This document shows positions 1-58,234 of a DNA stretch of 64,000 nucleotides, in pieces. Position 1 is the stretch's first letter. Each line of letters opens with the position of its first letter. Source of the DNA: Carallia brachiata (Eukaryota > Streptophyta > Magnoliopsida > Malpighiales > Rhizophoraceae); NCBI GenBank assembly GCA_021464245.1, contig JADCRB010000007.1, forward strand, positions 124,001 to 188,000, written 5' to 3'. The notes under the pieces are model-generated. The model worked only from the letters and a program-made list of their open reading frames with translations. It searched no databases and was not told where the DNA came from. The position numbers and the translations under genes were made by a program.

Positions 1-205
1 AGTCCCGACCTGGCTTAGGCTATCAGGAGAAGTCACCTGTGCGGATCACGCTAAAGAGCCGAAGCCGAGCAGCTGATGCACGTGCCATCACCACCACCAC
101 CAAACAAGACAGGCTTATCCAGTCAAACAAAGAAGGTGAAGTCAGAGGTTCTGCATTTCATGTCACAATTAGCGAGGAGGCTGATTCGACTCATCAGATG
201 GTGAA

Positions 206-1203
206 GTGAAGGAGGCTCCCCCGGAACTTGAAGATGGTGGCCAAGCAACTGTTGATGAACTCAAGGAGGTCAATCTTGGCTCTCCGGAAGATCCTCGACC
301 TACATTTGTAAGTGCTTTACTTACTGCAGAAGAAGAGCAAGAATATGTTCAGGTATTAAGTCAATACAGGGACGTGTTCGCATGGAGTTACAAAGAAATG
401 CCTGGACTTGACCCAAAAATTGCGGTGCATCGTCTAGCAGTAAAGAAGGGTGTCGTTCTGTCAAGCAGCCACAACGACGGTTCCGCCCGGAACTCATTCC
501 ACAAATCGAGGAGGAGGTGAACAAGCTGATCAATGCCGGCTTCATCCGAGAGGTCACCTACCCAACGTGGATTGCCAACATTGTCCCGGTAAGAAAGAAG
601 AATGGACAGTTGAGGGTATGTGTTGATTTTCGAGATCTTAACAAGGCCTGCCCGAAAGATGACTTTCCGTTGCCCATAACGGAGATCACAGTCGATGCAA
701 CAACGGGTCACGAAGCATTGTCTTTCATGGATGGTTCTTCAGGCTATAACCAAATCAGAATGGCACCAGAAGACGAGGAGTTGACAGCATTCCGCACCCC
801 AAAAGGTATATACTGCTACAAAGTTATGCCGTTTGGATTGAAAAATGCTGGCGCCACTTATCAACGTGCTATGCAAAAAATTTTTGATGACATGCTGCAC
901 AAGATTGTAGAATGTTATGTTGATGACTTAGTTGTAAAGACTAAGAAGCGCAAAGACCACCTCGAGGATCTCAAGACAGTGTTCGAAAGACTTCGGAGGC
1001 ATCAGCTCAAAATGAACCCTCTCAAGTGCGCATTCGGTGTCACATCAGGAAAGTTTCTTGGGTTCGTGGTGCGCCATCGTGGAATCGAAGTTGATCAGTC
1101 AAAGGTTGAGGCAATTCAAAAGATGCCTGAACCTAAAAACCTGCACGAGCTGCGAAGTCTACAAGGAAAGCTGGCTACATTCGCCGTTTCATCTCCAATT
1201 TAG
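206..1203 (+). pseudogene. retrotransposon protease-RT linker and reverse transcriptase, frameshifted
   Basis: This segment would copy element RNA into DNA. Two frames are used: 206 to about 470 carries the linker before RT, and about 470-1203 carries the RT palm and fingers. Visible RT landmarks are a VDFRDLN block near 625, a PFGLKNA block near 828 and the catalytic YVDD box at 916-927. The frame shifts near 470 and again near 1190-1230 as it enters RNase H. The GTG at 206 is not a real start, because in this family RT is cut from a polyprotein. Gypsy RT identity is certain; Tat assignment rests on overall resemblance and on the following domains. Confidence 0.93.
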
Positions 1204-1205
1204 CT

Positions 1206-1841
1206 GGGAGATGTCAACCTTTCCATCGGTTGATGAAGAAGGATGTCAACTTCGAGTGGGACGAAGCTTGCAGCAAAGCCTTTGAGAGCATAAAGAAGTA
1301 CCTTTCCAATCCACCGGTCCTAGGTGCTCCAATTCAAGGAAAGTCGTTGATTCTCTACATTGCAGCGCAGGAAAGATCTTTGGGAGCCTTGCTTGCACAG
1401 GAAAACGAGCAGGGAAAGGAAGTTGCCCTGTACTACTTGAGTAGAACACTAAACGGTCCGGAGCTGAACTATTCACCCATTGAAAAGACATGTCTAGCAC
1501 TGTTTTTTGCCATTGACAAGCTAAGACACTACATGCAAGCTCACACGGTACGTCTCATTGCCAGAGCTGATCCTGTCAAATATATCTTATCTAGACCAAT
1601 CTTGTCAGGACGACTTGCCAAGTGGGCAGTAATCCTACAAAGCTACGACATTGTCTACGTGCCTCAAAAAGCAGTCAAAGGACAAGCTCTAGCAGACTTC
1701 CTTGCAGATCACCCTGTTCCGTCAGATTGGGAGTTCACAGATGATCTTCCAGATGAAGAGGTCTTTTACATTGAGACACTGCCACCATGGACGATGTTCT
1801 TTGATGGTGCAGCAAGGCGTGATGGTGCTGGTGCGGCATAG
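1206..1841 (+). pseudogene. retrotransposon RNase H (RT-linked), frameshifted
   Basis: This is the RT-linked RNase H of the element, which would degrade RNA in the RNA:DNA hybrid. The frame differs from RT upstream by one shift. It reads through the typical gypsy block ending RT (near 1245-1320, a W-E-C-AF style segment), then an ALYYLSR-like block near 1425 and the tether towards the second RNase H near 1700. The end of this frame (about 1780-1841) already contains the start of the archaeal-type RNase H, with an FFDGAA motif near 1798, before another shift at about 1840. Confidence 0.88.
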
Positions 1842-2210
1842 TGTTTGTCACTCCTCAACGACAAATACTACCATATGCTATCATTCTCGGTGAGTTATGT
1901 TCAAATAATGTTGCTGAATACCAGGCTTTGATCATTGGTCTTCAAATGGCTGTCGATATGAAGATTCCAACTATAGAAGTCCATGGAGATTCCCAGCTCG
2001 TCATCAACCAACTTACAGGATTGTATGACGTGAAGAAAGAGGACCTTGCCCTTACCATCAACGTGCTCGACAGCTAATGGATGAATTTGAAAGCATCACC
2101 TTGGAGCATGTGCCTCGACGAGAAAACACTCAGGCAGACGCGTTGGCTAACCTGGCCACTTCTCTTGCAAAGTCAGAAATCCAGGCTACAGTTGTTGTGT
2201 ATGCCAGAAA
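1786..2210 (+). pseudogene. second, archaeal-type RNase H (aRNH) domain, frameshifted
   Basis: A second RNase H fold follows the first. Landmarks are an FDGAA acidic motif near 1798-1812, an NVAEYQA motif near 1909-1929, a GDSQLV motif near 1986-2003 and an NTQADALA motif near 2127-2150, the usual four-part acidic active-site pattern of this RNase H type. It is spread over three frames, with shifts near 1840 and 2075. Extra aRNH domains are a known trait of Tat-clade plant retrotransposons, so this supports the lineage call. The domain is inactive in this copy because of the shifts. Confidence 0.82.
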
Positions 2211-2216
2211 TGGATA

Positions 2217-3518
2217 GTGCCACAAAGGATGATGAAGAAACTACAGCAGCCAACGCTGTATCTGTACGTCTCGCGGAGGACGAGGATTGGCCAACCAATC
2301 ATTGACTACCTACAGCACGGGAAGCTGCCGAAGATCGTCGTCATAAGACAGAAATTCAACGACGAGCTCCCCGCTTCATATATCTCAAGGATGCTCTGTA
2401 TCGAAGGTCTTTTGATGGAGTTTACTTCGCTGCCTAGCAATGAAGAGGCAAAACAGGCTCTCACTGAAGCACATTCTGGTGTTTGTGGCGGACATCAATC
2501 GGGCCTAAGTTGCACTTCCAACTCAGAAGGATGGGATACTACTGGCCAACATGGTACGTGATTCAATTGAGTTTGCTAAAACTTGTCAAGCTTGTCAATT
2601 TCATGCGAATTACATACATCAACCACCGGAGCCACTGCATCCAACTGTCTCATCCTGGCCCTTTGAAGCTTGGGGTCTCGACTTAGTGGGGCCCTTGCCA
2701 AAGTCATCCCTGGGTCACCTGTACATCCTCGCAGCAACCGACTACTTCTCAAAATGGGCTGAAGCCATTCCACTTAGAGAGGTAAAGAAGGAGCATGTTG
2801 CCAATTTCATCCGGACTCAGCTGATCTATCGCTATGGAGTCCCTCGATTCATCATCACTGATAATGGTAAGCAGTTCTACAACAGCTTAATCGACAAGCT
2901 CTGCGAGAATTCAAGTTCAAGCAGTACAAGTCATCCATGTACAATGCCCCAGCAAATGGCTTGGAAGCATTCAACAAGACCTTATGCAACCTGTTGCGGA
3001 AGGTAGTCTCTAAATCCAAAAGAGATTGGCATGACAGAATTCCGGAGGCATTATGGGCGTATCGTACAACTTACCGGACTCCAACACAGGCGACGCCATA
3101 CTCACTTGTCTACGGTGTCGAAGCAATACTGCCGTTGGAAACACAGATTCCATCCCTGCGCATGGCTGTTCTGGAAGGACTCACACAGGAGGAGAATGCT
3201 CGCCTACGTCTGGATGAGTTAGAAGCTTGATGAAAGGAGGCTCGAAGCACAACAGCAACTTGAGTGCTACCAAGCCCGGCTCACCAACACGTTCAACCGC
3301 AGGGTCCGCCTCGATCTTTTCAAGTTGGAGATCTTGTTCTTGCAGTGCGACGGCCCATCAACATGAAGCATCGGCCTGGTGACAAGCTTACTTCCAAATG
3401 GGATGGGCCATACCTAGTGCAGGAGGCCTATACTCACAACGCTTACATGCTGTCAGACCAAGAAGGCGTCCGAATCGGCCCAATCAATGGTAAATTTCTG
3501 AAACAATATTATGTGTAA
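2217..3518 (+). pseudogene. retrotransposon integrase, frameshifted
   Basis: This is the integrase, which would insert element DNA into the genome. An HHCC zinc finger lies at about 2466-2600 (H-x-G-x-C-G-GH, then C-x-x-C), split by a shift near 2520-2550. The catalytic core has the first Asp at 2680-2682 (GLDLVG context), the second at 2860-2862 (TDNG context) and the Glu at 2964-2966. The codon before that Glu, usually Ala in a GLAEAFNK context, is missing. Further shifts lie near 2910 and 3230. The C-terminal part (3264-3518) ends KFLKQYYV with no chromodomain, consistent with Tat rather than a chromovirus. The stop is TAA at 3516-3518. Confidence 0.93.
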
Positions 3519-3527
3519 ATATGTTTG

Positions 3528-3553
3528 AAAAAAAAAAAAAAAAAAAAAAAAAT

Positions 3554-3618
<65 letters not shown>
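3528..3618 (+). repeat. A-tract after integrase
   Basis: About 90 bases of A, broken only by TC at 3553-3554, starting 10 bases after the integrase stop codon. It may be polymerase slippage, or a scar of a poly(A) junction formed when cargo was joined to the element. Its exact length could be an assembly artefact. Confidence 0.9.
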
Positions 3619-3621
<3 letters not shown>

Positions 3622-3953
3622 CGGAAGTCCCGATCTGAAAGTCCAAGCGAAAATCCAAACCCAAAAATCCAAACCCAAACACTTGAGCCCAATTCAGAAA
3701 ACACAAAACCTAAGTCCAAAACCCAAACACTCAACCCAAATTCAATTCAAAGCCCAAAACCCAAAAAATTCCAAGTTCCAAACACAGTCCAGAAACCAAG
3801 TTCAAAATCTAATCCAACTCCTGGCCCGCATGAGTATAAACTGTGAACGGCCCAAAAATATAAAAGTAACGGAGGGTTTGAGTCTGAAACTCAGCATCAG
3901 TCTCAACCGATCTTCACCACACACCAGACCTTTGCTCCACTGCCACAAGAAAG
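3619..3953 (+). promoter_or_regulatory. spacer with possible internal TATA box and leader of the homeobox ORF
   Basis: Positions 3630-3830 are C/A-rich with irregular CCAAACCCAAAA-like repeats and no believable ORF. A TATA-like TATAAAAG lies at 3859-3866, about 90 bases before the ATG at 3954, and what follows looks like a plant 5' leader. The homeobox ORF may therefore have kept or gained its own promoter instead of depending on the LTR. This is inference; no transcript data are available. Confidence 0.4.
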
Positions 3954-4570
3954 ATGGAACCAGTTGCAGAACCTCAAGACAAGGGAGAAGAAAGGTCACC
4001 CCGCACAAGGTGGCAACCAACCATGGCGCAACTGCAAATTCTAGAGGAAGTCTTCCACAACAATGGAGGTATTATGCCTAATGCATCTCAGATTTACCAA
4101 CTTGTCTCACGATTGCGCCCACTCGGGGCAATCGAAGGAAAAATGTGTTTTATTGGTTCCAGAATCGGAGAAGCAGGAAGAAACCAGCACTGAGAGCTGA
4201 TTTTTCCAAAGAACAGTCTGCTGTTCCGATGGTAGATCCCACCAGTACAACTTCGCCGTCAAATGAAGCAGGTCTGAGTTCTTCCACTGCAATAGTCTCT
4301 CCACGGTATGTTCATCAAAGCCGTAGCTCATGGGAGCATGCACGCTGGTTCTGGTGGTCTTACGGAGTCAGCCAAGGGTTCATTCCTTCTAAGTACTTAA
4401 GTCTAGGAGGAATTTTTCTAGCAGAAAGGAGTCATTCCGGCGAAACTTTGCCTCTCTTTCCAGAATATTCCGGCAGCATCAACCAGCCAGAAAGCGATGT
4501 CGACATCAACATCATCGACCCACCAGACGAGGTCGAGCTTGAATTGGAGCTGCGCCTCGGGCCCCTCTAG
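3954..4570 (+). pseudogene. captured WUSCHEL-type (WOX) homeobox gene inside the retrotransposon, one frameshift
   Basis: Known WOX proteins are DNA-binding regulators of plant stem-cell niches. Here the ATG at 3954 opens a frame whose residues 17-63 match the first two helices of a WOX homeodomain (TRW-PT start, then a two-residue-longer loop and IEGK). After the A-run at 4139-4143 the matching frame moves by one base, and from 4142 it continues NVFYWFQN, the WOX recognition helix, to the stop at 4568-4570. One A appears to be missing. Downstream are a WUS-box, TLPLFPE (4445-4465), an acidic stretch, and a C-terminal EAR-like LELELRL (4538-4558); this order is that of WUSCHEL-clade proteins. 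Counting both frames it would be about 205 residues. The homeodomain is not interrupted by an intron. It lies on the same strand as pol, between integrase and polypurine tract. Identity as WOX is near certain; function in this copy is doubtful. Confidence 0.9.
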
Positions 4571-4590
4571 GATGGCCCACAAGATAAGAT

Positions 4591-4677
4591 GCAACGACTT
4601 TGGCAGCACGACAACGACTTCTGCAGCACACGGCAACGACTTCTGTAACACACGGTAACGACTTTCGTGACACGCGT
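4591..4677 (+). repeat. four degenerate copies of a ~22-bp repeat
   Basis: Four head-to-tail copies built on CAACGACTT-Y-TG-CACAC-GG follow the homeobox stop codon by about 20 bases. They are imperfect, so they are not a recent slippage product. No known function is recognised. Confidence 0.75.
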
Positions 4678-4761
4678 CAGCCGCTGCCTCTTTTGTCTCT
4701 TATGCAGGAAAAGGACGTGGAGGACCCTACTCGAATCTGCGTACCTTCTTTTTGACTTTTC

Positions 4762-4784
4762 AAAAAAAAAAAAAAAAAAAAAAA
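4762..4784 (+). repeat. A23 tract, possible fossil poly(A) tail of the captured mRNA
   Basis: A run of 23 A lies 192 bases after the homeobox stop, a plausible 3' UTR length. With the intronless homeodomain it suggests capture of a processed transcript. No AATAAA signal is seen just upstream, so the reading is tentative. Confidence 0.4.
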
Positions 4785-5480
4785 CTTTATCGCATGTATA
4801 TATATATCTTGCATTCCCGAGTTATAATACTCACCCCTCAGCTCTTCTTTCTCAAAAAGAAAATGGCTAGTCTCTGCACTTGTCTCAGGAAGTTCTTCGA
4901 TCAAGAATTGGAGGCGCACGAGCTAAGAAAAGAAGGAGTAGTCTTCCTCGAGGGATAACGCCATCGGTGTCATGGAGTTCCAACTACTCTCCTTAGTTCA
5001 CATCTACTACAGAGGGATGAGACGCTGCAATTATCCTAATCTTCCTTTGGATGCGGCGATTTACGGGAAAGTTCCAACTACTCTCCTTACGTCGAAGCAG
5101 ACTTAGGAATCATCACTACAGTCAGTCTCTCTGTGTGCCGGTCTTGAAGTTCCAAGGTCCTGGGCCTTCCTCTTGGGGAGGTTCAAGTTCTTTGCCTACT
5201 GGATCATCCTCACCAGAGCTTTGGAACTTCAAAGAACCTTTGCCAGCCTTTGCCAGCCATGGAAGCTCGAACACACCTGGAGCCAGAATGTCAATTTTTA
5301 TATTGGCTGGGCTGCTAACTTTCTCAAGATCGTATCGGGTTCCTATTGCGATCCACCAACAGCAGGCATGGTCAAAGATAGAAGACTTCAAGATTCAATG
5401 TTCATCAGGACGTTTCCAAGTTTCAAACTGGACTTTAAGACTCTGTTCGAATCATCTCTGTAAAATTCTTTCTTACCGAC
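4785..5480 (+). other. non-coding 3' internal region of the retrotransposon
   Basis: This lies between the A-tract and the polypurine tract. It contains short ORFs without recognisable domains. A 19-bp phrase, GTTCCAACTACTCTCCTTA, occurs at about 4978 and again at about 5072, marking a small internal duplication. Long non-coding stretches here are usual in Tat elements. Confidence 0.6.
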
Positions 5481-5498
5481 CCTTGAAGTGGGGGCATT
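5481..5498 (+). promoter_or_regulatory. polypurine tract before the 3' LTR
   Basis: CTTGAAGTGGGGGCATT directly precedes the inferred LTR start TGTAAAC at 5499. A purine-rich G-run at this site primes plus-strand DNA synthesis in LTR elements, and the AAGTGGGGGC form is typical of Tat-type elements. Confidence 0.85.
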
Positions 5499-5550
5499 TG
5501 TAAACAAAGAAAAGAAAAAAAAATATAAAAAAAAAAAAATAGAAGTCAAA

Positions 5551-5588
5551 GGCCGGCGTTGCTGATTTCAAAATCAGCAACGCCGGCC
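5551..5588. repeat. perfect 18-bp inverted repeat (2-nt loop) in LTR U3
   Basis: The left arm 5551-5568 (GGCCGGCGTTGCTGATTT) pairs exactly with 5571-5588, with loop CA. It is GC-rich in an A-rich setting, so it would form a strong hairpin or cruciform. Confidence 0.95.
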
Positions 5589-5615
5589 AAAGAAAAATTA
5601 AATTAAAAAGATTCA

Positions 5616-5642
5616 TTTCCCATGTGATGTTCACATGGGAAA
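5616..5642. repeat. 12-bp inverted repeat (3-nt loop) just upstream of first LTR TATA box
   Basis: TTTCCCATGTGA (5616-5627) pairs with TCACATGGGAAA (5631-5642). The right arm is the start of the tandem unit and so recurs in all four units; the left arm occurs only before unit 1. Confidence 0.9.
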
Positions 5643-7806
5643 GGAACCCTATAAATAGGCCCCTGCCCCTCAGTTCAAAACACATTCAGCAAATCTGTAA
5701 ACAGAAAAATCCAGAGAATTTGAGAGAAAAAGAAAATTTTGAAAATCTCTCAAGAAAATTTCTCCTTTTCTTACGTGCTGTTACTCTGCAGTATACTCTC
5801 CTAACTCCTTTTTGAGAGATATTTCAGGGGTAAGCCCCAAAAAATTTGTTGTTTCCATTTCCAAAGTTATTTTTAGGTTTATATTCTCGGATCGCCCTAG
5901 ATCTGAATTTATGAGAATATAGATCTAAAAATATCAAATTACTACAAATCCAGCTGGGATTAAGCCTCATACGGCCCTCAACAAAATCCAGGCAGCTCAT
6001 CCGAGAACAAGTCCCTTCGACCCTCGGTAAAATTAAGCCAAATCAGCTCAGATCTGGTTTTTGCAGTTCTTAACCGTAGTCAAAACGTCCAAATCAGATC
6101 CGGTTTCAGTCTACCCAGTTCAAGAAAAAGTTGTGGAATTTATTTCTGTCAAGATCAAGCTCGTGCAGCCCTTCAGTTCACATGGGAAAGGAACCCTATA
6201 AATAGGCCCCTGCCCCTCAGTTCAAAACACATTCAGCAAATCTGTAAACAGAAAAATCCAGAGAATTTGAGAGAAAAAGAAAATTTTGAAAATCTCTCAA
6301 GAAAATTTCCCCTTTTCTTACGTGCTGTTACTCTGCAGTATACTCTCCTAACTCCTTTTTCAGAGATATTTCAGGGGTAAGCCCCAAAAAATTTGCTGTT
6401 TCCATTTCCAAAGTTATTTTATGGTTTATATTCTCGGATCGCCCTAGATCTGAATTTATGAGAATATAGATCTAAAAATATCAAATTACTACAAATCCAG
6501 CTGGGATTAAGCCTCATACGGCCCTCAACAAAATCCAGGCAGCTCATCCGAGAACAAGTCCCTTCGACCCTCGGTAAAATTAAGCCAAATCAGCTCAGAT
6601 CTGGTTTTTGCAGTTCTTAACCGTAGTCAAAACGTCCAAATCAGATCCGGTTTCAGTCTACCCAGTTCAAGAAAAAGTTGTGGAATTTATTTCTGTCAAG
6701 ATCAAGCTCGTGCAGCCCTTCAGTTCACATGGGAAAGGAACCCTATAAATAGGCCCCTGCCCCTCAGTTCAAAACACATTCAGCAAATCTGTAAACAGAA
6801 AAATCCAGAGAATTTGAGAGAAAAAGAAAATTTTGAAAATCTCTCAAGAAAATTTCCCCTTTTCTTACGTGCTGTTACTCTGCAGTATACTCTCCTAACT
6901 CCTTTTTCAGAGATATTTCAGGGGTAAGCCCCAAAAAATTTGCTGTTTCCATTTCCAAAGTTATTTTATGGTTTATATTCTCGGATCGCCCTAGATCTGA
7001 ATTTATGAGAATATAGATCTAAAAATATCAAATTACTACAAATCCAGCTGGGATTAAACCTCATACGGCCCTCAACAAAATCCAGGCAGCTCATCCGAGA
7101 ACAAGTCCTTCGACCCTCGGTAAAATTAAGCCAAATCAGCTCAGATCTGGTTTTGCAGTTCTTAACCGTAGTCAAAACGTCCAAATCAGATCCGGTTTCA
7201 GTCTACCCAGTTCAAGAAAAAGTTGTGGAATTTATTTCTGTCAAGATCAAGCTCGTGCAGCCCTTCAGTTCACATGGGAAAGGAACCCTATAAATAGGCC
7301 CCTGCCCCTCAGTTCAAAACACATTCAGCAAATCTGTAAACAGAAAAATCCAGAGAATTTGAGAGAAAAAGAAAATTTTGAAAATCTCTCAAGAAAATTT
7401 CCCCTTTTCTTACGTGCTGTTACTCTGCAGTATACTCTCCTAACTCCTTTTTCAGAGATATTTCAGGGGTAAGCCCCAAAAAATTTGCTGTTTCCTTTCC
7501 AAAGTTTTTATGGTTTATATTCTCGGATCGCCCTAGATCTGAATTATGAGAATATAGATCTAAAAATATCAAATTACTACAAATCCAGCTGGGATTAAAC
7601 CTCATACGGCCCTCAACAAAATCCAGGCAGCTCATCCGAGAACAAGTCCCTTCGACCCTCGGTAAATTAAGCCAATCAGCTCAGATCTGGTCTTTGCGGT
7701 TCTTAACCGTAGTCAAAACGTCCAAATCAGATCCGGTTTCAGTCTACCCAGTTCAAGAAAAAGTTGTGGAATTTATTTCTGTCAAGATCAAGCTCGTGCA
7801 GCCCTT
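5630..7806 (+). repeat. four tandem copies of a ~547-bp LTR promoter unit
   Basis: Units start at 5630, 6177, 6724 and 7269 (spacings 547, 547 and 545); the fourth ends at about 7806 where unique LTR sequence resumes. Each starts TTCACATGGGAAAGG and carries a TATA box CTATAAATAG at 5649, 6196, 6743 and 7288. Units 2-4 share small changes from unit 1 (for example TTCAGAGAT for TTGAGAGAT), and unit 4 has extra one-base deletions, which points to stepwise expansion by unequal exchange. Confidence 0.95.
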
Positions 7807-7950
7807 GACGGAGTAAAAAAAGGAACACTAATCGGAGGATCTACAGAGATCGACCCCACGTAAATTTTCTTTTACTTTACAATTTTTATTTGTAATTTAT
7901 TTTTGTATTTTCGAGTTTAATTATTTTAGACTCGAAATTTACGCTTTACA

Positions 7951-35176: not shown

Positions 35177-35638
35177 TCAGCAACTCATGGGAGGAAGATC
35201 TGAGGATTTCTGATAAGGTGGTTCCTTTGTGTCCTTGAAAACTCTGCTTCCAAACAGCAAAAAACCAAGGGTGTGACCAGCCAGAGCCGCCAGGAACACA
35301 CCAACGTTAAAAGACATGATAGCTAACATTACCAAATAGGCAAGACCAACCCTTAAGCCGTGCAACAATGTCTGAACCAGACCCGCGGCAACGTTGCTGG
35401 TCCCCGGCTTGATCAATTTGCAATGGGACAGCCACTCTACGAGGATGGCAACCACGAATACGACCACCAAAGCCAGCGCGTACATGCCACCCCGTGTCCC
35501 AGGCCAGCCGGAGAAGAGGATCTCGCTGTTCTTGCCCCAGAAGAAGGTCATGTGCGTCAGCATCTCTTGGTGGGCGCCACCACCGCCGTCCTTGCCACTC
35601 ATTCCAGGCATGTCGTGGTTGTGATCATGACCGTTCAT
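35177..35638 (-). CDS. CTR/COPT-family copper transporter, copy A
   Basis: Imports Cu(I) across the plasma membrane as a trimer. It is a single exon of 153 residues with ATG at 35636-35638. The N-terminus is His/Met-rich (HDHNHDMPGM, then the TM1-proximal MLTHMTFFWG). Three membrane spans follow: about residues 50-70, 92-112 and 115-133. TM2 carries the essential MxxxM (MLAIM) and TM3 the GxxxG packing motif (GHTLGFLLFG). The tail ends in MSC, with a Cys as expected for copper hand-off. A TATATA lies at 35750-35755, about 110 bases upstream, and a cluster of GTAC motifs further out. It is paralogous to copy B 4 kb away, in tandem on the same strand. Confidence 0.95.
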   Translation of the reverse strand: MNGHDHNHDMPGMSGKDGGGGAHQEMLTHMTFFWGKNSEILFSGWPGTRGGMYALALVVVFVVAILVEWLSHCKLIKPGTSNVAAGLVQTLLHGLRVGLAYLVMLAIMSFNVGVFLAALAGHTLGFLLFGSRVFKDTKEPPYQKSSDLPPMSC

Positions 35639-36078
35639 CTTTTCGTCGCAAAATCAAAAAGACTGGGACTTCGGAGGAGCTTCGGGGATTTCGGTAATGG
35701 GTAATTGGTTTCGTTGTTTTTATTGCGGTTGATGTGCTGGGAAAGTGGGTATATATTGCGAGAACATGGGGCTGTGGTGTGGATGCCGGGTGTTAGAATT
35801 TTATACCCATAAATGTCAGTACAATAGCACGGGTTGTCTTGCGTGTGCGGTTCAATCATCTAAAAATAACTTGAATTCGCATAAAAAAAAATTATGGACT
35901 CAAATCTTATAAAAATTAAAAAATAAAATTATTTACAAATTATTACTTGATATAAGAGATATAAAAATTATTTAATTACTTCACGTCTTTTAATTACAAA
36001 GTTTTCAATTCTTTTATTTAAGACCGGGGAGCACGACTTCTTGTTTTCACACCAAAAAACAATACATAAACAGGTTTT

Positions 36079-39460: not shown

Positions 39461-39916
39461 TTAGCAGCTCATTGCGGGAAGATCAGAGGCTTTTTCGGCA
39501 TCTTTTGATTTCTTGAACGCCCTGCTGCCAAAAAAGAAGAAACCCAGAGCATGGCCAGCAACAGCGACCAAGAACACGCCCCCATTGAAGGACATGAGAG
39601 CTAGCATGAGCAGGTAAGCTAAACCGACCCTTGCGGAATACATAATGGTCTGGGCCAGCCCAGCCATAATTGGGTCCGCCCCGGGCTTGACCAATCGGCA
39701 GTGGGACAGCCACTCGACTAGAAATGAGACGACAAATGTAAACACCAAAGACAGTACATACATGTCTGTCCTGAACCCCGGAAACTGGTGGAACAGAACT
39801 GTCCCATACGAGCCCCAATAGAAAGCCATGTTCATCAAGAACTTCTTGGGCCGGTGTGTCATTCCGGCAGTGGCGTTGTTCCCGGCCAATGATGTTGGAG
39901 CCATGACTGCCATCAT
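39461..39916 (-). CDS. CTR/COPT-family copper transporter, copy B
   Basis: Cu(I) importer of the same family as copy A. From the first ATG of the frame (39914-39916) it has 151 residues; the open frame extends 37 codons further upstream, but only with a TTG. Three spans are clear: residues ~50-68, 91-111 and 114-132. MxxxM is MLALM and GxxxG is in GHALGFFFFG; the tail ends LPAMSC. The N-terminus lacks the His-rich run of copy A and keeps only Met-x-Met near TM1 (FLMNMAFYWG). It begins MMAVMAPTSLAG, mildly hydrophobic, so a cleavable signal is possible if translation starts upstream. A lone GTAC is at 40048-40051. Confidence 0.92.
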   Translation of the reverse strand: MMAVMAPTSLAGNNATAGMTHRPKKFLMNMAFYWGSYGTVLFHQFPGFRTDMYVLSLVFTFVVSFLVEWLSHCRLVKPGADPIMAGLAQTIMYSARVGLAYLLMLALMSFNGGVFLVAVAGHALGFFFFGSRAFKKSKDAEKASDLPAMSC

Positions 39917-40960
39917 AATGAACAACAAAATTGAATACTTTGTTTTAATGTTTACAATTTTCTGGCTGCGACGTTGGGGATGTGGGAGGCTGTTTGCACA
40001 TTTATGTTGGTGAATTTGATGGCACAAGATACTGGGAGCAGTAAATTGTACTGTGCACGTAATTTATTATGAAGGTAACGTTGGAGATAGTGTTATAGAT
40101 GTCTAGTATCTGTCGTTGCAATTTTCTCGGCAAGATTTTCTTTATTTTCCTCCCTTTTTTCTTGGATGACTCAACAGCCAATGAAATTCTAACTTCAAAT
40201 TATAATTAAGATAACCGAAAAATTCGGTAACAACCTAATAAACGTGGACTGTTGTAGCATAATATAATAAAAAATATATTAAATTTTGAAAAATGTAGTA
40301 TATGAGCCGTAGGATCAACTTGGTGCACCGGCACACCTTTCACTCCGTTGTCACTATAATTTTTTTTTATCATTGTCATTATTATTATTGTCATAATTGG
40401 TATTGTTAGTATTATCATTATGGTTTCTTCTAGGAAAATTGTTTCGATAAGCGGAATAAAAAATAATGGAAACAATATTGAGTTTGAAATTTTTCTTTTT
40501 GGTGACTAACCCTTTGTTTCGTAAAAAAGAGAGAGGGTGAGGAATATTGGAGAAATGAATGTTAAAAAGAAAGAACGTATTTTATTATTTTTATATTTGA
40601 AAGAGTATAATGTGAGGAAAAAAAGTGAAAAATATTTTATTTAAGATTGTGTGAAAAGTGAGAAGAAAGAGTATAATATTTATTATAATACCAAAACTAT
40701 CCCTAAAAAATAAAAAATAAAAATAAGGGTAAAGTAGTATATTCAATTACAAAAAAATATATATGTATATGGTCAGCCCCCAACGCAATTTCCCACATAA
40801 TTAGGAGAAATTGCTTTTGGGTGAGGCCCAGGTGGGCTCCATCAATTTTTTTTTTTAAGTCCACTCAGCTTCCTAAATAAGAGAACATGCTCAATTCTAC
40901 TTCAGCTCCATTCCTAATACATGGACTCTACCCTGAACCCCTCCTCCCAAACAAGGGCTA
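39917..40960. other. COPT copy B upstream region and spacer
   Basis: Positions 39917-40130 are leader and promoter of COPT copy B. Positions 40500-40760 resemble a hAT-like MITE (ACCCTTTGTTTCGTAAAAAAG, then purine-rich). No gene is seen. Confidence 0.45.
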
Positions 40961-41094: not shown

Positions 41095-41193
41095 GTCACG
41101 CCAGTTCAGTGATTGGCATCATCAAAGAAAACGAAGCAACAATTCTCGCAAGAACAAACACAGCTCTCTTTAACAAGCAACAAAGAACAAGAT

Positions 41194-41685
41194 ATGGCAT
41201 TGATTCCGAGCTTCTTTGGCAACAGAGGAAGCAGCAGCATCTTTGATCCATTATCTGCCTTTGACATCTGGGATCCCTTTAAGGACTTTCCTTTCCCTTC
41301 CTCTTCACTCACCGGTCGTCAGGAAAACAATTCTTCTGCTTTTGCTCTTAACGCTCGCATAGACTGGAAAGAGACCCCAGAAGCGCACGTCTTCCGGGCC
41401 GACCTTCCGGGTCTTGGAAAGGAGGAAGTGAAGGTAGAGATTGAAGATGGCAAGGTGCTTCAGATCAGCGGAGAGAGGCGCGTGGAGAAAGAAGACAAGA
41501 ACGATAAATGGCATCGCGTGGAGCGTAGCAGCGGCAAGTTCTTGAGGAGCTTCAGGCTGCCTGAGAATGCCAAGCCGGATCAGGTCAAGGCCTCCATGGA
41601 AAATGGGGTGCTTACAGTGACTGTTCCTAAAGAGGAGGTCAAAAACCAGATGTCAGGGCCATTGAGATCTCTGGTTGAAAATTGA
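41194..41685 (+). CDS. class I small heat-shock protein, copy 1, C-terminus frameshifted
   Basis: Cytosolic class I sHSP, an ATP-independent holdase that binds unfolding proteins in large oligomers. It is intronless, with ATG at 41194 in the context conserved in all four copies (GATATGGCATTGATTCCGAG). The N-arm has the class I SSIFDP..FD.WDPF motif, and the alpha-crystallin domain runs from about residue 53 ([12 protein letters not shown]) to 145, with LPENAK and GVLTVTVPK. After VPKEEVK the sequence departs: one A is missing in the AAAAACC run near 41642, so the last residues become [13 protein letters not shown] and the usual AIEISG with its IxI motif is lost. The result is 163 residues where the other copies have 161. 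Oligomer assembly may be impaired. An ORF extension of 27 codons upstream is 5' leader. Confidence 0.93.
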
Positions 41686-41860
41686 AATGTTAAAAAAATC
41701 TTGATTGGATGCTTTGTGACAATACTTAACTGTAATGTAATAGTATAAAATAAGATGTTAATTTTGTAACGTAATCTCTATGTATTGTTCTTCTCTTCCA
41801 TTGCTCGCATGGTTTCACTTTAATCAAATGAATCCAGTCTTGATTAAGGTATAACAAATA

Positions 41861-42801
41861 TTTTTTTTTTTTTTTTTTTGACCAAATAGACAATTCATAT
41901 ATTAGACAAGAAACTATGTAAGTCAAACAAAAGGAGCCCACGTCACGATACATATAAGCTCATATAAACAGAAGACAAAACAAGCTCCTAAAAGCTCAAC
42001 CAGCGAAACCCACTCCAACTAGGCCTCAAACCAACCCGCTACAGCAGCTTGCAGACTAAAAGAAACCAAAGCTCGAACCCATAGCTCAGGGAGATAGGAA
42101 GCCTGCACAGTAACGAAAATGGGCCAAGCCCATTACAGCAGAAACTTGGAACCAAAAGGTTCCAGATCTGCACCGCACAATGGCAGCAGCTCCAAGCACA
42201 GTCGGAAAGGCGGCGAAGCGAGCCACTACGGGCCGCCAGCAATGCGGCACCGGCCAAAGGCCGACCACAAGCCATAAACGCCAAGCGCAACACAAAGGCG
42301 GGGACCATCAATGCTGGAGAGGACGGAGAAGCCGTTGAAGAAGGAAATGACCGAAATTGGAAGGAGAGTCGAGAGACCAAAAGCAGAAGGCAAAGACGAG
42401 GCTCCATGAACCGATCCACCTGTACAGGACCCCTCCGACCATCAAGCACCAGCAGTCGGCAAAAACGAAGCTGTCCCCCACCTCTCCACCCTAAGAGCAG
42501 CGGCTGCAGAGAGGCGGGGGACATCCTGAGAAGCACCAGAAAGCACGAACAAAGGAGGACAGCCAGCAGCCCAAATAACTGGAAAACCCCCCACCAAAAC
42601 CCGGATCGCTCACCAAGGAGCACCAGAGCCCACAAAGGGGCACCAACGGCCACAAGGACCGACGAGAACCGACCAGAATTCCTGAGAAACCCCAGAAATC
42701 CCAACGGTACCAAAGGAAGACGCACGACGTACGTTAGCAGAAGTTAGTGTACGTTAGCAGAAGCTAGCGTACGTTAGCGCTCGGAAGGTTTATCCAGCAA
42801 T
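41861..42801 (-). mobile_element. 941-bp retroposon with poly(A) and 14-bp target duplication
   Basis: The insert is flanked by perfect AGGTATAACAAATA direct repeats (41847-41860 and 42802-42815). It starts with a T-run at 41861, so read on the minus strand it ends in poly(A), as in L1-type target-primed insertion. Its 5' end (right side) has short repeats GCTAACGTAC-CTAGCTTCT. The 228-codon minus-strand frame at 42039-42725 is low-complexity Leu/Ser/Arg-rich and starts without ATG context, so it is not taken as a gene. It is a non-autonomous LINE derivative or large SINE, 0.18 kb downstream of sHSP copy 1. Confidence 0.88.
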
Positions 42802-42815
42802 AGGTATAACAAATA

Positions 42816-43770
42816 ATTTGTACCAAAGTTTACCTCAATGTGAATGGAGACTAAAATACGATACAGGAACACAAAACAGTTTGTACCTTATTGATATTTA
42901 GGATATGACAATGACTGCAAGCATTTTACAAAGAAATTTCTTCAGATGACTTTTAAAAACATTAAAAGAGTTTAATATCCAATTTTACTAACAACTTAAA
43001 CTTTGAATCAAATGATTTTTTTGACATTATTGTGAATTTTTATGCGTACCTTCACTAGTCATAATCAAAAGAACAGTCAAAAGCTTTTTTTATGTAATCT
43101 TTGAATCCTCACTCAGAGATTGGCGTCATTCATTGTTTAATGAATCCCATCCTCTCCGCACTTTGTCTATTACTTTCCATAAATTTCTTATATCACAGCG
43201 AGAGATTGTGCATCGTTTCAACACTGTTGCTTTATATATAAGATCAACACTATATATGGGAAAGGCTCATCTGTAGCACTATAGAAAATCTCCAATGGCT
43301 TTCAAAATCGTCCCCTGTTTATGTTCGTCCGCTATGCAGGTTTCAAAATGACATCATACTTTTGTTGAGGGATTGTTGGTTGTTGAGTAATGCAGAACAC
43401 CTCTAAGAGGCCAAAAAAAAAAAAAAAAAAAGTTAAGAGATGTGGAGACTTATGCTTTTTTTTTATATTAATTGATTATGTCTGAAACTTAAATAGTCTT
43501 ATATTATGCCGAATAAAATATTCAAAGAATCCTAAAATTTGGGAGTTGGTAAAATCTTTCTTTTTTTCATAAAAACCCTTATATTTATATGACTAAATAG
43601 GTACCTGATTAACAGGCTCGGATTGTGCTGAGATTGTTTAGATACAAACTATAGGAATCGTAATCAGCGGACTTATGCACTCGAGACAAGAATTCTAGAA
43701 TCCGCTTAAGGTTCAAAAATTCTAAACTTGGAGAGCAACGAGCCCATAAACCTAATGGGCATAATCCTTA
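42816..43770. other. sHSP copy 1 3' flank, paralogous to flanks of copies 2 and 3
   Basis: No gene. Phrases such as TTTGAATCCTCACTCAGAG, CGAGAGATTGTGCATC, TTTTGTTGAGGGATTGTTGG and GGGCATAATCCTTATGAAAG recur at 53800-54340 and in part at 49030-49110. Confidence 0.75.
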
Positions 43771-43784
43771 TGAAAGGTCAAGTC

Positions 43785-45430
43785 AGGGGCGGATGCACAT
43801 TATCATTAGTGGGGGCAAGTAACCCTACTGACATTTAGAAAAAAACTATGAATTAGGGGGAGATAATTTATTGAAAACTTTTGTTTGTCCCTACTGAATA
43901 TTAATCTTTGCCCCCATTAGAAAACAATTTTTGCCCCCACTAACTTACAAATTAAGGATTTTTTTTTTTCATCAGATAAAAGAATATGATAAAGAGAAAT
44001 TTTAAACTCAGTTTTTAAATTTTTTTATGGATATGCATATATTATCTGTAGATATTTCATTTTTAAGGTAAATCATTTAACTTTTTTTTTAATCAAACAT
44101 TCAAAATAAAATATGCATTTGTATAACTTGGAATTGTTTTAAACTTATTACTAATTTCATAAAAATAATACTATTATTATTTTTGAATATATATTGCTTT
44201 AAAATTTTCTCTATGAGCTTACATTAAAATTGTATATGCTTTTTAGTCATCAAAATTATAATAAAACGTACGAAATAAAATTTCATGTGTTTTTTATATC
44301 TACCCCTTGTATTTTTTTTTTTATTTTTATGTATTGCCTCTATCTTCTTAGAGTTTTGATAAATAGACGCAATTAACTTTAACATGTTAAAGATGCGAAC
44401 TCATGTGACTATTTAGACAAACACATTTTTTATTTTTTATTATTATTTACAATCATGTATCAAAAGATTAACAAAGTGTAATTAATGAGTATTAGAGGGT
44501 GTTTGACATAATTTTTAAGAAATGTATTTATATTTTATTTTTAAAAAGGAGAGAAAAATATGTTTGATAAAATTAATTTAGAGACTACTAATTGTTGATA
44601 ATTAATTCAATCAGCTGCTGATTTAAAAAATAAAAAATAGGTTTGAGTTATTTTTGAAATTTGTCAGCAGCTGATGGGTATTTATTAGACCAAAATACCC
44701 TCGTATGCCCTTTGTTTTTCCCTACAAACGCGAAGCGGCTCGCAACCGATCGTTTCATACTTTACGCTTCGTAGCTGCTGATCGTTGCTTGGCTATTTGT
44801 CTCGGTCACTTTCCTACTTCGTAGCTATAGATCATTCCTTGGCTACCTCTCTCTCTTTGTTTGTCTCGCTCTCTCTCTATGTTTCTTTTTTTTTTTCTCT
44901 GTATTTCTCTCCTTTCATGAGCATCCCCTGATATTGTAGACCAGAATTTCTTTGTTTTTAACCACACCCTAGATTCAATTATAAGATAACAATTATTGTT
45001 CTTTGTTAATTTTAGTTATTAAGGATAAATTAGATGTTTAACAATTGTTTTTTGTTTTCTTGTTAAATTATCTTGTCAGAGATTAATGGTTATTACAGAG
45101 TTCAATGTATATCAGTTTGGGGTTGAGCCAATGGATCAGATAGAAACGCCCAAAAGGGCGTCATTACTCATTTCAATTCAAATTGTGTTTTCATGGTGGA
45201 GAGCAGTGTATTTTACTGACTTAGTGATTCTTCATGATTCCTGTCTGTTGAATTTACAGTACTGAGAAATTGCTTCTGAATTGTCTGGCAGCAATTGTTT
45301 TGTATTGGGTCTTTTTTTAAACGAAAAAACAAAATCTTTTTGTGTTCGATCCTTTACCTGAAAGAGTGTCGTAAAACTTTCAGTTTTAAGAAGAAAACCA
45401 AAATTAATGACTCTTATTTAGTCTATGAAA
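43785..45430. other. MITE-rich AT-rich DNA
   Basis: Positions 43785-43960 start CAGGGGCGGATGCACA and contain TTTGCCCCCA repeats, a common plant hAT-type MITE style. Positions 44500-44700 (GAGGGTGTTTGACATAA ... CAGCTGCTGAT) resemble another. No gene. Confidence 0.45.
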
Positions 45431-46855
45431 TAACTCAGTGTAATAAAAAGTGGCATTGAAATTGGGACAGCTGATAAACGGCAAGTTCATGAAATTTACT
45501 ATCTATTTTCTTGCCAAATATCTCTGTGGAGAACTTCCAAGCTGAAAGGGAAGCCAATGGCATTCCCTTCCATCCTACTAGATTGGCCCCAACGAGAGGA
45601 AAACCAAAAACCCAAAGCATGAAAAGAAGTAGTGCACCCACCCCAACTTATATTGATGGACAACGCGGCACTTGTCCTCAAAGGCAAGAGCAATTGTGAA
45701 ACACTTGATGCCCATAGAAAATGGAAGCACGTGGCATGGTTGAGTTTTTCTCGGAATATTAACTCGCAGTTGAAGATGATGTTACATGTAAAACTACGGA
45801 TTGTAAAAAATTCCAATGCTGTGTTGTTGGACTTGCATTTGCAAGTTGGACCATTCACGTTTAAATATTTTTTTTTAGCATACGAAATCGAATAAGGTAG
45901 ACTAAAAAAGACAAATATTTATTGTAATAAAATAAAAAAAAGTAATGTACTAAATAGACTTTATTATTTAAATAATAATAAATAAATACTAATTTAACTA
46001 AATATTATAATTTTATTTTAATAATTAGCAACAGTAATCAGTAACAGTAATCAGTAATCAGTAATCAATAATAATAATAACAATAAACAACAGGTTAATT
46101 AAACAGACGTTTAGAATATGATCGACGTATCACATTTTAGATGCATAAAATATTTTTTTACATGTTATGCCCCCGCTCACCTACATCTCTTTTTTATGCA
46201 TTTATGTAGGTTTTTTGTAAAATTAAAATAATTTCCTGATATTATTTCTACTCTTAGCAGAATGATAAAATTTAGGAACTGATTAACGGTTGAACGAGAA
46301 AACAATGCTAAACAACCAGCCTGGCTAGTAATGCCAACTTCAAATGTCCCCTCACGACTTGTGCAAGCCTCATCTAGCTGTAAAACTTTTCTTAGACAAG
46401 CAGTTTTGATGGATTATTTTTTCGGAAAAGTTTTTTAGTTGTTTTATCATGTAGTTGTTTTGTAACTGTTAATATATGACACAACGTATAAATTATATAA
46501 CATGGTAATAAAATTTTAAAAAAATTATATGATATATCAAAAAAATTATATGATACAAGTAATTAGTCATTAAAAAAAATTGTAATGATTGATTATACAA
46601 ATCGTATAATTTTTTTAATATGTCATATAATAATTTTTTAATTCAATTACTGTAGCATATAATTTATTTATTGACAAAAAGAGTTGTATAAGAGATAATC
46701 ATGTAGTCACGGTCTTATTTTTTGATCCATTGTTTGGGTGGATAATGTATAATAATAGGAAAAAGATAAATAGACATGCATATACATAGATGAAAATGTA
46801 ATAAGTATATAATGATACAAATTATTGAATTATTAAAAATTTATTAAATTTTTTT
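45431..46855. other. intergenic DNA with unassigned overlapping ORFs
   Basis: Positions 45430-45900 carry frames on both strands (up to 119 codons), richer in G+C than the surroundings, with no recognised domain; they may be a captured exon or old element. Positions 45935-46130, with GTAATCAGTAATCAGTAATC and ending AATTAAACAGACGTTT, look like a MITE end. Confidence 0.35.
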
Positions 46856-47119
46856 TTTTAAAAAATAAATTATTAAATATTATTAAATTAATTATATATA
46901 TTTTTTACGTATTTATTATTACATATTTATACAATAGTCCTCGTTTAAAAAAATAAATTATTAAATATTATTAAATTAATTATATATATTTTTTACGTAT
47001 TTATTCTTACATTTTTATACAATAGTCCTCGTTTAAAAAAATAAATTATTAAATATTATTAAATTAATTATATATATTTTTTACGTATTTATTCTTACAT
47101 ATTTATACAATAGTCCTCG
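46856..47119 (+). repeat. three tandem copies of an 88-bp AT-rich unit
   Basis: Each unit ends TACAATAGTCCTCG; the TAGTCCTCG ends lie at 46935, 47023 and 47111, exactly 88 bases apart, and copies differ at only a few positions. Confidence 0.93.
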
Positions 47120-47586
47120 TAATAATATCCTCTTCTAAAATTGACAATCGTCTTGTCGAACCCGTCACTGATTGTCTAAGATCTCCCCTCTAATGGGCAG
47201 GTTGGACGCACCGAGATAGTGGACCAGTTTGTCCCTCCATCCACCCTTGCTTCATCTTCTTTAGATCTGGGGTTTCCAAATTATGTTGACATATGGGTAA
47301 ACAGACGGGAGTTAACATCACTTTATCGTAATTGAAGAAAAAAAATTTTAAAAACCAAATGTTTTATAGATGAGAAAATAGAAGAGCATCCTTAGAGAGT
47401 TAACTGTCTTCTAACACAAAGGACCAGAGCTCATTTATTAAAGAGACCTTTCATTTTGAGGAACGACTAAAATAAAAGAGTCGTGACTTTTCTGTTTTGA
47501 TGATAAAATTTTGTGAATTGTCATTTGGCTTTGAGTACTCAATCAACCAATGATAAGCTTTTGGATAAATTCCTTTCATACATTCA

Positions 47587-47618
<32 letters not shown>

Positions 47619-47790
47619 GATTTTTACATCCATAGAAAAATTTGTCAAGGAGAAGGGATTGCTAGTTAGGAGAATCGTTTCGAACGAAGTAGAAAAGAAA
47701 AAAAAAAGGAACAAAATTGAGTTCGAATTCTCCTTTTTCCTTTTATCAGACTTCAAATAAAGGAAAGTGAATTTTCTCCCAAATAATGTT
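47120..47790. other. sHSP copy 2 upstream block, paralogous to 57400-57980
   Basis: Shared phrases include GTTGACATATGGGT (about 47284 and 57513) and TAACATCACTT. An ATT microsatellite (47588-47618) sits at the matching place of another (57829-57862). No gene. Confidence 0.75.
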
Positions 47791-47930
47791 TCTTTTTTTT
47801 TTTTGTGTACCAGACGACCGTTTCATCCCGAAAGGCCCAAGTATTCCCAGCATGCCAGCAACTTCAAGAACTAAGATATACCCAAGTATGGAATCATCCT
47901 TCCGGGCCTCGACAAATCTGGAGCTTACTC

Positions 47931-48006
47931 GAAAGTTCCAGCATCCAACAGCTCAACCACGATTGGTCCAGAAAGTACCCGATGTCCCCTTGTCTTCCAA
48001 TAAATA
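47931..48006 (+). promoter_or_regulatory. heat-shock element and TATA region of sHSP copy 2
   Basis: GAAAGTTCC at 47931-47939 gives the core alternating element. The TATA position reads AATAAATA (47999-48006). Confidence 0.65.
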
Positions 48007-48124
48007 TCCAGACCCAGTTCGGCCACAGGCATCATCAGAGAAAACGAATCAGCAATTCTGCAAGAAAAAGCCAGCTCTCTTTGACAAGCAACAGAAGCCT
48101 TAGTCTTTGACGAGGAGGAAAGAT

Positions 48125-48610
48125 ATGGCATTGATTCCGAGCTTCTTCGGCAACAGAGGAAGCAGCAGCATTTTTGCTCCATTCTCCGCTTTCGATGTCT
48201 GGGATCCATTCAAGGACTTTCCTTTCCCTTCTTCTTCACTCATTGGCCGTCAGGAAAACAGTCCTTCTGCTTTTGCCATTAACGCTCGCGTAGACTGGAA
48301 AGAGACCCCAGAAGCTCACGTTTTCGGGGCCGATCTTCCGGGGCTTGGAAAGGAGGAAGTGAAGGTGGAGATTGAAGATGGGAAGGTGCTTCAGATCAGC
48401 GGAGAGAGGCGTGTGGAGAAAGAAGACAAGAACGATCAATGGCATCACGTGGAGCGTAGTAGCGGAAAGTTCCTGAGGAGGTTCAGGCTGCCGGAGAATG
48501 CCAAGCCGGATCAGATTAAGGCATCGATGGAGAATGGGGTGCTTACCGTGACTGTGCCCAAGGAGGAAGTCAAGAAACCTGATGTCAAGGCCATTGAGAT
48601 CTCTGGTTGA
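48125..48610 (+). CDS. class I small heat-shock protein, copy 2
   Basis: Cytosolic holdase of the same family, intronless, 161 residues, ATG at 48125. The class I N-arm, alpha-crystallin domain (about 52-147) and C-terminal extension with AIEISG (IxI) are all present. It differs from the other copies by Gly for Arg in the VFRADLPGL strand and by a His-His in NDQWHHVE. It faces GST copy 3 tail to tail, 0.96 kb away. Confidence 0.95.
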
Positions 48611-49568
48611 AAATTGAAATGTATAAAAAATCTTGATGGGAAGAACACTTTGCTCAACTGTTATGTTAACCACATGTTGTGAGAACACTTTATTTTTAAC
48701 TATTATGTGATGATAGTAAAATAAGTTGTTAATTTGCTAACGTAATTTTTATTTTGTATTCAATGAAATGAATCATGTCCTGATTAACGTTGTTACAAAG
48801 TAAATTAGAGATTACATATTCTCTTCCCAACCTTTCCTCAATGTGAATGGAAACTATACCATATAATATAAAAGCACATAATTGTTCGTAACTTAGTAAA
48901 ATTTACGATGATGATTGCAAGAATCTTACAAAGAAATAGGTTAAGGAGTTTAATATATGATACCACTAAAAACTTAAACTTTGGATTAAATGGCTTTGTA
49001 AATTTTTATACGCATGGTTTAAACTTTTATTTAAACCGTCACTAATCATAATCAAAAGAAATTGGCGTCACTCATCACTCAACACATCCCATCTTCTGTG
49101 CACTTTGTCTATAACCCCCCAAAAATTTGTTATGTCTGAGACAGAGAGAGAGAGAGAGAGAGAGATGTAGCATTAATTTAACTCTGTTGTGTAAGAAGTG
49201 AAAGGAAAAACAGTTAAATTTTAAATTTTAAATTTTTTAAAATTTTTTAGTTATTGTTAAATTTATAATTAAAAAATATTATTATTAAAAATGTTAAGTG
49301 AAAGCAAAGGTAAGATGAAATCATAACAGTATAATTACAATTATTTAAAATTTATTTTCGTGCAGCCATCGGTTCTATTCGCATTTATTATAAGCTTTTA
49401 TTCATCTATGGGGACAACACAAAGGACTATATAGATCCCAACACACCAAAACAGAGTGGAAAAAAAAGTAGACAAGGGAAAACAGTCAAACACACACAAG
49501 GGAAAACAGTCAAACACCAAGACATGGATGTCATAAAACTGGTAAAGCCAATAGCAGCATATGACCCT
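48611..49568. other. spacer between convergent sHSP copy 2 and GST copy 3
   Basis: Both 3' UTRs fall here: HSP-type 3' flank to about 49110, an AG microsatellite at 49142-49166, and the GST poly(A) signal (AATAAA on the minus strand, 49397-49402). No further gene. Confidence 0.6.
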
Positions 49569-50477
<909 letters not shown>

Positions 50478-50679
50478 TCAAGTAACTGAAAGGCAAACTT
50501 GGGTGTATGTTTGCTTTGATCTTGGAAGTGGTGGTGTGGTTGTGGGTGCCTTGACACTTTCTTTTTATGATAAAAACGAAGTGTTTTATAAAAGGAAAGT
50601 GTCTGGCTAGACAAACCTGCTGATGAGATGATTTTCTCCAAGCTTTAGGATTTTGAAAAGTCAAAATTCTGGAAGCAAC

Positions 50680-50696
50680 TGACGTCAGTGATGACT
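50680..50696 (+). promoter_or_regulatory. as-1-like element of GST copy 3
   Basis: TGACG (50680-50684), seven bases, TGACT (50692-50696), with the palindrome TGACGTCA at 50680-50687, 218 bases before the ATG of the minus-strand gene. Confidence 0.75.
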
Positions 50697-50759
50697 TCGA
50701 CACACAATGAATATCTAATGGGTGGATCTGCTCTGTTCAAAAAAATATCTTATTCATGG

Positions 50760-52450: not shown

Positions 52451-52514
52451 AGAAATGAGAAGTACCCAAGTACGGAATCATTCTTCCGGGCCTCGACAAA
52501 TCAAGAGCCTACTA

Positions 52515-52588
52515 GAAAGTTCCAGGATCCAACAGCCCAACCCCGATTTGTCCGGAAAGTACCCGAGGTCTCCTTGTCTTCCTATAAA
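52515..52588 (+). promoter_or_regulatory. heat-shock element and TATA box of sHSP copy 3
   Basis: GAAAGTTCCAGGATCC starts at 52515 and TATAAA is at 52583-52588, about 120 bases before the ATG. Confidence 0.75.
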
Positions 52589-52708
52589 TGTCCAGACCCA
52601 GTTCTGCCATGGACATCATCAGAGTAGTCGAAGCAACAATTCGCGCAATAAAAAAGCCAACTCTCTTTAACAAGCAACAAAGCCTTACTCTTTGATTAAG
52701 TGGAAGAT

Positions 52709-58230: not shown

Positions 58231-58234
58231 ACGA

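Follow-up and report, generated by a model that had tools for sequence, protein, structure and literature searches.

In a screen of 121 angiosperm genomes, Gypsy elements were reported to carry 15 unusual domains, B3 and YgdH being two of these (PMC9289625). YgdH, the LONELY GUY domain of a host cytokinin-pathway gene, was found in Citrus Gypsy-type elements, and also in poplar when the authors' n5 filter was not applied (PMC9289625). In Phalaenopsis, a 2-ODD (AlkB) ORF was acquired by 25-kb elements of the Tat family, of which a dual RNase H is a feature; these elements are sister to Ogre within Tat, are represented by 38 and 23 consensus sequences in two orchids, and encode an RNA demethylase that is active in vitro (PMC9289625). 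LTR elements of Aegilops tauschii enclose B3, a DNA-binding domain of plant transcription factors (PMC9289625). Retand elements, surveyed among potentially recently active copies only, possess LTRs of 315-1,194 bp, a long pol-3'LTR region with frequent tandem repeats, and an antisense TRP28 ORF, an accessory ORF with predicted DNA binding; in the available part of that survey the ORFs with known domains are antisense, and no sense ORF of the region encodes a known domain (PMC11963269).

WOX genes have themselves been reported between LTRs. According to a 2023 meeting report (talk by K. Naito), Vigna marina and V. riukiuensis contain many WOX copies, more than 1000 in V. riukiuensis, and these mostly lie between identical LTRs with target-site duplications (PMC10714607). 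Any comparison with the Vigna units rests on a report whose available part states no WOX clade, element lineage, orientation, coding state or presence of pol. The transposable elements found no more than 2 kb from WOX genes in Brassica are a separate matter (PMC6482515). The host proteins WUSCHEL and HEADLESS combine a homeodomain, a WUS-box and a C-terminal EAR-like motif with a canonical acidic region, and HEADLESS, of 302 residues, is encoded in three exons (PMC6305195).

We show herein that a 64-kb window of Carallia brachiata DNA (the window being the whole stretch that was analysed) contains, at 3954-4570 of the plus strand, a WOX ORF with a homeodomain, a WUS-box and a C-terminal EAR-like motif, on the same strand as the pol of an LTR retrotransposon. 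In these three motifs it resembles WUSCHEL and HEADLESS, which are, unlike it, host genes. With the Vigna units it shares a plant WOX gene in the setting of LTRs, but those exist in many copies, whereas one broken copy beside pol is visible in Carallia. The Citrus elements likewise have a host gene domain in a plant Gypsy element, but an enzyme domain rather than a transcription factor; the Aegilops elements likewise have the DNA-binding domain of a transcription factor, but B3 rather than a homeodomain. The Phalaenopsis elements are alike in Tat family, dual RNase H and acquired ORF, and unlike in the kind of protein and in their length. Retand is alike in having tandem repeats and an accessory ORF downstream of pol, but that ORF is antisense, and the pol-3'LTR region is 2.9-6.6 kb long as against about 2.0 kb here (PMC11963269).

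Results

The WOX reading frame

The initial annotation had described a WOX homeodomain, a WUS-box and an EAR-like motif at 3954-4570 on the strand of pol, with one base missing in the A-run at 4139-4143. Translation recovers all three at these places, the Pfam matches and the frame map put both WOX and the pol domains on the plus strand, and homology assigns a single frame switch to that A-run. The features are as follows.

3954-4142, plus strand: first WOX piece, start codon and homeodomain to IEGK (WUSCHEL 6ry3, E=1.8e-10; PF00046 profile 2-37)
4142-4570, plus strand: second WOX piece, NVFYWFQNRRSRKK to the stop (PF00046 profile 41-56; frame open 4082-4567)
4445-4465, plus strand: WUS-box TLPLFPE (translation, shuffle test)
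4538-4558, plus strand: EAR-like LELELRL near the C-terminus (translation, shuffle test)
3859-3864, plus strand: TATAAA-type motif 95 nt 5' of the WOX start codon, with another at 3835 (pattern scan)

From the start codon at 3954 the translation opens with MEPVAEPQ, and TRWQPT of the homeodomain follows at 4005-4022, IEGK at 4131-4142 and NVFYWFQN at 4142-4165. The homeodomain is spread over two frames, frame 3 being open at 3888-4190 and frame 2 at 4082-4567. The switch falls at the IEGK/NVFYW junction, and the second piece, in frame 2, takes the homeodomain on with KNVFYWFQN. Within the tail, TLPLFP occupies 4445-4462, with the glutamate of TLPLFPE reaching 4465, and an acidic stretch, ESDVDINIIDPPDEVELE, lies 3' of this WUS-box. 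Three residues after LELELRL the protein ends, and the stop codon is at 4568-4570. Save for the one frame change, the coding region is continuous and intronless.

Both halves of the homeodomain matched PF00046, the N half over profile positions 2-37 (E=9.6e-4, 19.4 bits) and the C half over positions 41-56 (E=3.7e-4, 20.7 bits); each lies below the gathering score of 22.9 bits, and the two profile stretches adjoin. In a PDB search the N half found WUSCHEL 6ry3 (53 residues aligned, E=1.8e-10) and STENOFOLIA 6wig (E=8.7e-8), the only two matches at E<=1, and it aligned with WUS ungapped while STENOFOLIA required a one-residue gap. The C half, a short query, had the same two chains at the top with E values that are not significant alone (0.049 for 6ry3 and 0.088 for 6wig), and aligned at the right place in both; its third match was an unrelated antibody chain (E=0.54). 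When the 128-residue tail was permuted 200,000 times, 29 permutations acquired TLxLFP and 1,300 a terminal LxLxL (scored over the last 15 residues), but 0 had the two together. Openness of the frame was dropped as coding evidence, since 162 or more open codons in a row also arose in 236 of the 2,000 sequences resampled from 3620-5497 with a Markov model. An NCBIfam search with three pieces gave no match. Judged by homology and motifs, 3954-4570 is a real WOX gene.

Relationship to the WOX clades

The helix 3 sequence NVFYWFQN marks the homeodomain as WOX-type. TLPLFPE conforms to the WUS-box of the WUS clade, TLXLFPXX, and in tobacco the nine WOX proteins with this box repress while the four without it activate (PMC5890105). 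LELELRL corresponds to the C-terminal EAR-like motif and follows the WUS-box as it does in WUS. In Solanaceae and Arabidopsis this motif is found in members of the WUS and WOX5 subgroups, AtWOX7 excepted (PMC5977200), and among tobacco WOX proteins in WUS only (PMC5890105). Helix 3 further on departs from the WUS clade, with NRRSRKK here versus NHKARERQK in WUS and STENOFOLIA. The acidic region of WUS usually lies 5' of the WUS-box.

The homeodomain was compared with ten Arabidopsis WOX homeodomains, aligned by hand. In the N half of this alignment the closest were WOX3 (24/46 identical) and WUS (23/46), and the most distant were WOX9 and WOX11 (13/46 each). The helix-3 half ranked them otherwise, with WOX9 at 14/18, WOX11 at 13/18 and WUS at 10/18. 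Over the whole domain WOX3 was highest (35/64), WUS having 33/64, and the extra residue, for which STENOFOLIA required a gap, was shared, among the ten, only with WUS. Because helix 3 departs from the clade and is there nearer to WOX9 and WOX11, the Carallia ORF is, on these sequence features, a divergent, WUS-clade-like WOX rather than a proven member of the clade. The "full set of landmarks" seen in it by the initial annotation is close to correct, the exceptions being the sequence of helix 3 and the position of the acidic stretch, which is present but comes after the WUS-box.

The surrounding element

Upstream of the WOX gene lies a broken pol, and downstream a series of features that leads to a putative 3' LTR.

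3-3518, plus strand: broken Ty3-type pol (Pfam, frames 1, 3, 2, 1, 3)
412-1203, plus strand: reverse transcriptase, RVT_1 (Pfam 3.9e-35)
1137-1841, plus strand: RNase H, RT_RNaseH (Pfam 1.3e-24)
1823-2077, plus strand: second RNase H-like domain, RVT_3 (Pfam 1e-11)
2509-3006, plus strand: integrase core, rve (Pfam 2.3e-9)
3264-3518, plus strand: integrase tail, SH3_Tf2-1 (Pfam 1.2e-4, under its cut-off)
3528-3618, plus strand: A-tract directly 3' of the integrase stop (TRF period 1, 91 copies)
4591-4673, plus strand: 22-bp tandem repeat 3' of the WOX stop (TRF, two overlapping rows)
4863-5463, plus strand: second sense ORF, degraded, lying between WOX and the polypurine tract (frame map; ATG 4863, frame change, internal stop 5104)
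5486-5496, plus strand: polypurine-tract-like AAGTGGGGGCA, just 5' of the putative 3' LTR (read from sequence)
5499-7860, plus strand: putative 3' LTR, beginning TGTAAAC (repeats, TG start; 3' end guessed)

The best solved chains for the reverse transcriptase were 4ol8 (1.5e-38) and the Ty3 Gag-Pol chain 7q5b (1.1e-37), and the domains follow the order RT-RNaseH-INT. Since a Ty3-type reverse transcriptase is joined by two RNase H domains (RT_RNaseH at 1137-1841 and RVT_3 at 1823-2077), a Tat-type Ty3 element appears to be the best reading. No antisense TRP28 (PF04195) ORF was matched in the seven scanned of the nine antisense ORFs that reach 60 aa or more at 3453-5685, and the distance from pol to the 3' LTR is about 1,980 bp (3518 to 5499), short of the 2,933-6,566 bp of Retand. 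The element is thus Tat-type but not a typical Retand. Rfam and ARAGORN scans found nothing in the window.

The window starts inside pol, and the 5' LTR would lie before it. We take AAGTGGGGGCA to be the polypurine tract and 5499 onward to be the 3' LTR; with the 5' LTR beyond the window's edge, this reading and the limits of the element are unproved. Inside the putative LTR a unit of about 547 bp is repeated four times in tandem (5629-7806); sub-blocks of the units are 82-100% alike, with blastn pieces at 97-99%. As far as the window shows, the placement of the WOX gene between integrase and polypurine tract, made in the initial annotation, is right, given the Pfam domains and the polypurine-tract-like motif.

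A host WOX gene or pseudogene might also have come to lie, outside any element, beside LTR-element fragments by chance. Single-exon host WOX genes do occur (PMC5977200), the window does not reach a 5' LTR, and the downstream LTR is recognised by a motif and a repeat structure alone. Such a coincidence nonetheless seems very improbable, with the integrase frame ending 435 nt before the WOX start codon on the same strand and with a polypurine-tract-like motif and a TG start downstream.

The pieces at 4863-5463 presumably belong to one gene, and no Pfam match was found for them. A TATA-like motif precedes them at 4797, and a 20-bp direct repeat lies inside (4976-4995 and 5070-5089). The TATA-like motifs at 3859 and 4797 could be internal promoters for WOX and for this second ORF, respectively. 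Long A-tracts (3528-3618 and 4762-4784) flank the WOX segment inside the element.

Decay and base-call error

The pol pieces with Pfam matches show at least four frame changes, and the WOX cargo one. A homopolymer of four or more bases was present in two of the seven overlap zones between successive pol frames, and homopolymer error is accordingly not favoured as the explanation for frame changes throughout pol. As a base-call control, four small heat-shock genes from elsewhere in the window were examined. All have an open frame of 161-163 residues, and the common C-terminus is kept in three of the four, the other shifting frame near its end beside an A-run. This change of frame, at 41614-41685 on the plus strand, is either a true lesion or a base-call error.

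With pol domains in five successive frames and the cargo broken once, joint decay since insertion fits, and for pol it is the likely cause. The break in WOX could stem from decay or from a base-call error, the latter because it lies in an A-run and because one of the four heat-shock genes is similarly shifted.

Origin of the WOX insert

As would be expected of a captured gene, the WOX insert is intronless. Because HEADLESS, the WUS gene of Medicago, has three exons (PMC6305195) and the tobacco WOX genes all have introns, one to three in number (PMC5890105), this suggests that a spliced RNA was captured. The argument is inconclusive, however, because SlWOX3b and AtWOX7 are single-exon host genes (PMC5977200) and WOX3 is among the nearest of the ten homeodomains compared.

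An intronless ORF could also be a processed WOX retrocopy (LINE-type), or the product of some other one-off insertion into a single Tat copy, and not cargo of a family. A run of 23 A (4762-4784), 192 nt 3' of the WOX stop, agrees with such an origin, as does the presence of only one WOX copy, window self-comparison having found no second one in the 64 kb. Against it, the best exact match adjoining the A-run that might represent a target-site duplication is 4 nt, a length that 272 of 300 shuffles matched or exceeded, and a 6-nt match occurs only further away; neither AATAAA nor ATTAAA is found at 4570-4870; and A/T runs of at least 15 bases are common, with 14 in the window besides that at 4762-4784. 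An L1-type retrocopy was rejected for the missing duplication signal at this A-run. The position and strand of WOX are, moreover, those usual for captured ORFs, according to the available part of a review (PMC7264820). We consider insertions of this kind unlikely.

In IMG/VR, which has few or no plant genomes, the pattern of the C piece matched 4 times, that of the N piece 2 times and that of an integrase piece 2 times, 0 of these being confirmed by tblastn, and the exact polypurine-tract/LTR-start pattern matched 0 times. Prokaryote genome contigs, also with few or no plant genomes, gave 33 pattern matches, 0 of them confirmed. Given this coverage, such negatives carry little weight.

Discussion

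The most likely status of the Carallia ORF is that of cargo captured by a Tat-type element, now in a dead copy. At a probability of roughly two in three, we favour a reading in which a Tat-type Ty3 element captured the spliced transcript of a WUS-clade WOX gene, and the cargo later decayed with pol. The mRNA would have been taken in downstream of integrase and upstream of the 3' LTR, in the orientation of pol, and the gene would since then have belonged to the element. The Vigna units are a precedent for WOX genes between LTRs (PMC10714607). The frame was probably open when the Carallia copy was inserted, and would then have decayed jointly with pol. In cells where the element was active, any WOX protein may have been made from the element transcript or from an internal TATA promoter. 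The initial annotation had regarded the gene as cargo of a Tat-lineage retrotransposon; this finds partial support, in that an intronless WOX with WUS-clade landmarks does lie in the accessory region of a Tat-type element.

A special case of this capture would be an old, conserved accessory gene that regulates the element or keeps host cells stem-like, represented here by a dead copy. Almost all of the roughly 200 codons of the WOX ORF are open, in contrast to a repeatedly broken pol; the repressor motifs are retained despite a diverged homeodomain (at best 35/64 among the ten compared); and WOX was amplified in LTR units in Vigna (PMC10714607). On the other hand, the window contains no second copy, the open length is unexceptional for the base composition (236/2,000), and the putative LTR is not significantly enriched in binding sites. 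We regard so old a gene as possible but rather doubtful.

The WOX protein would be expected, from its motifs, to bind DNA and to recruit corepressors of the TOPLESS type, a recruitment demonstrated for HEADLESS (PMC6305195). Counts of WUS-type site motifs were made in the putative LTR and in the region from pol to the polypurine tract. TGAATGA, TTAATGG, TTAATSA and TCACGTGA occur 0 times in either, and the looser TGAATG occurs 4 times in the putative LTR (1.8 expected, P 0.11) and 0 times in the other region. In view of the lack of significant site enrichment in the putative LTR, autoregulation of the element by its WOX is not claimed. Any role of WOX for the element is speculation. That a Tat-type lineage keeps this WUS-clade-like repressor, with homeodomain, WUS-box and EAR-like motif, as a working accessory gene, which through TOPLESS would repress host genes for differentiation or silencing in meristem cells, from which new insertions can pass into the germ line, seems to us unlikely. 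If true, the element would be to plants what a retrovirus with a regulator of cell fate is to animals.

The initial annotation knew of no described retrotransposon family with such a gene. This was too strong, and the claim to novelty is weakened because LTR-flanked, amplified WOX genes had already been reported in Vigna (PMC10714607). Among the matches listed, that report is the only one to describe WOX genes carried between LTRs, as far as the available texts go, and in the available parts of the literature examined, again among the matches listed, a sense-strand repressor with WUS-box and EAR-like motif inside a Tat-type element is not named. In the main text of PMC9289625, as available, no word starts with "homeo" or "WUS", and homeobox or WUS terms are absent from the available main texts on Retand (PMC11963269), on additional ORFs (the review PMC7264820) and on gene capture in rice and sorghum (the survey PMC3726574).

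If intact, expressed copies exist, a retrotransposon would encode a protein of the class by which stem cells are specified, and would do so in the tissue from which its insertions are inherited. Considered alongside the LONELY GUY domain in other elements, which stands for cytokinin activation, and the WOX burst in Vigna, the Carallia locus suggests that plant LTR elements may repeatedly acquire meristem regulators. It is also a warning for annotation, as apparent "WOX family expansions" may in some cases be cargo of transposons.

Other genes in the window

The remaining genes of the window were named by eye. Within 9628-61839 lie four class I small heat-shock protein genes (41113-58919), several pieces of tau-class glutathione transferases, and two copper-transporter ORFs on the minus strand (35177-35653 and 39461-40063).
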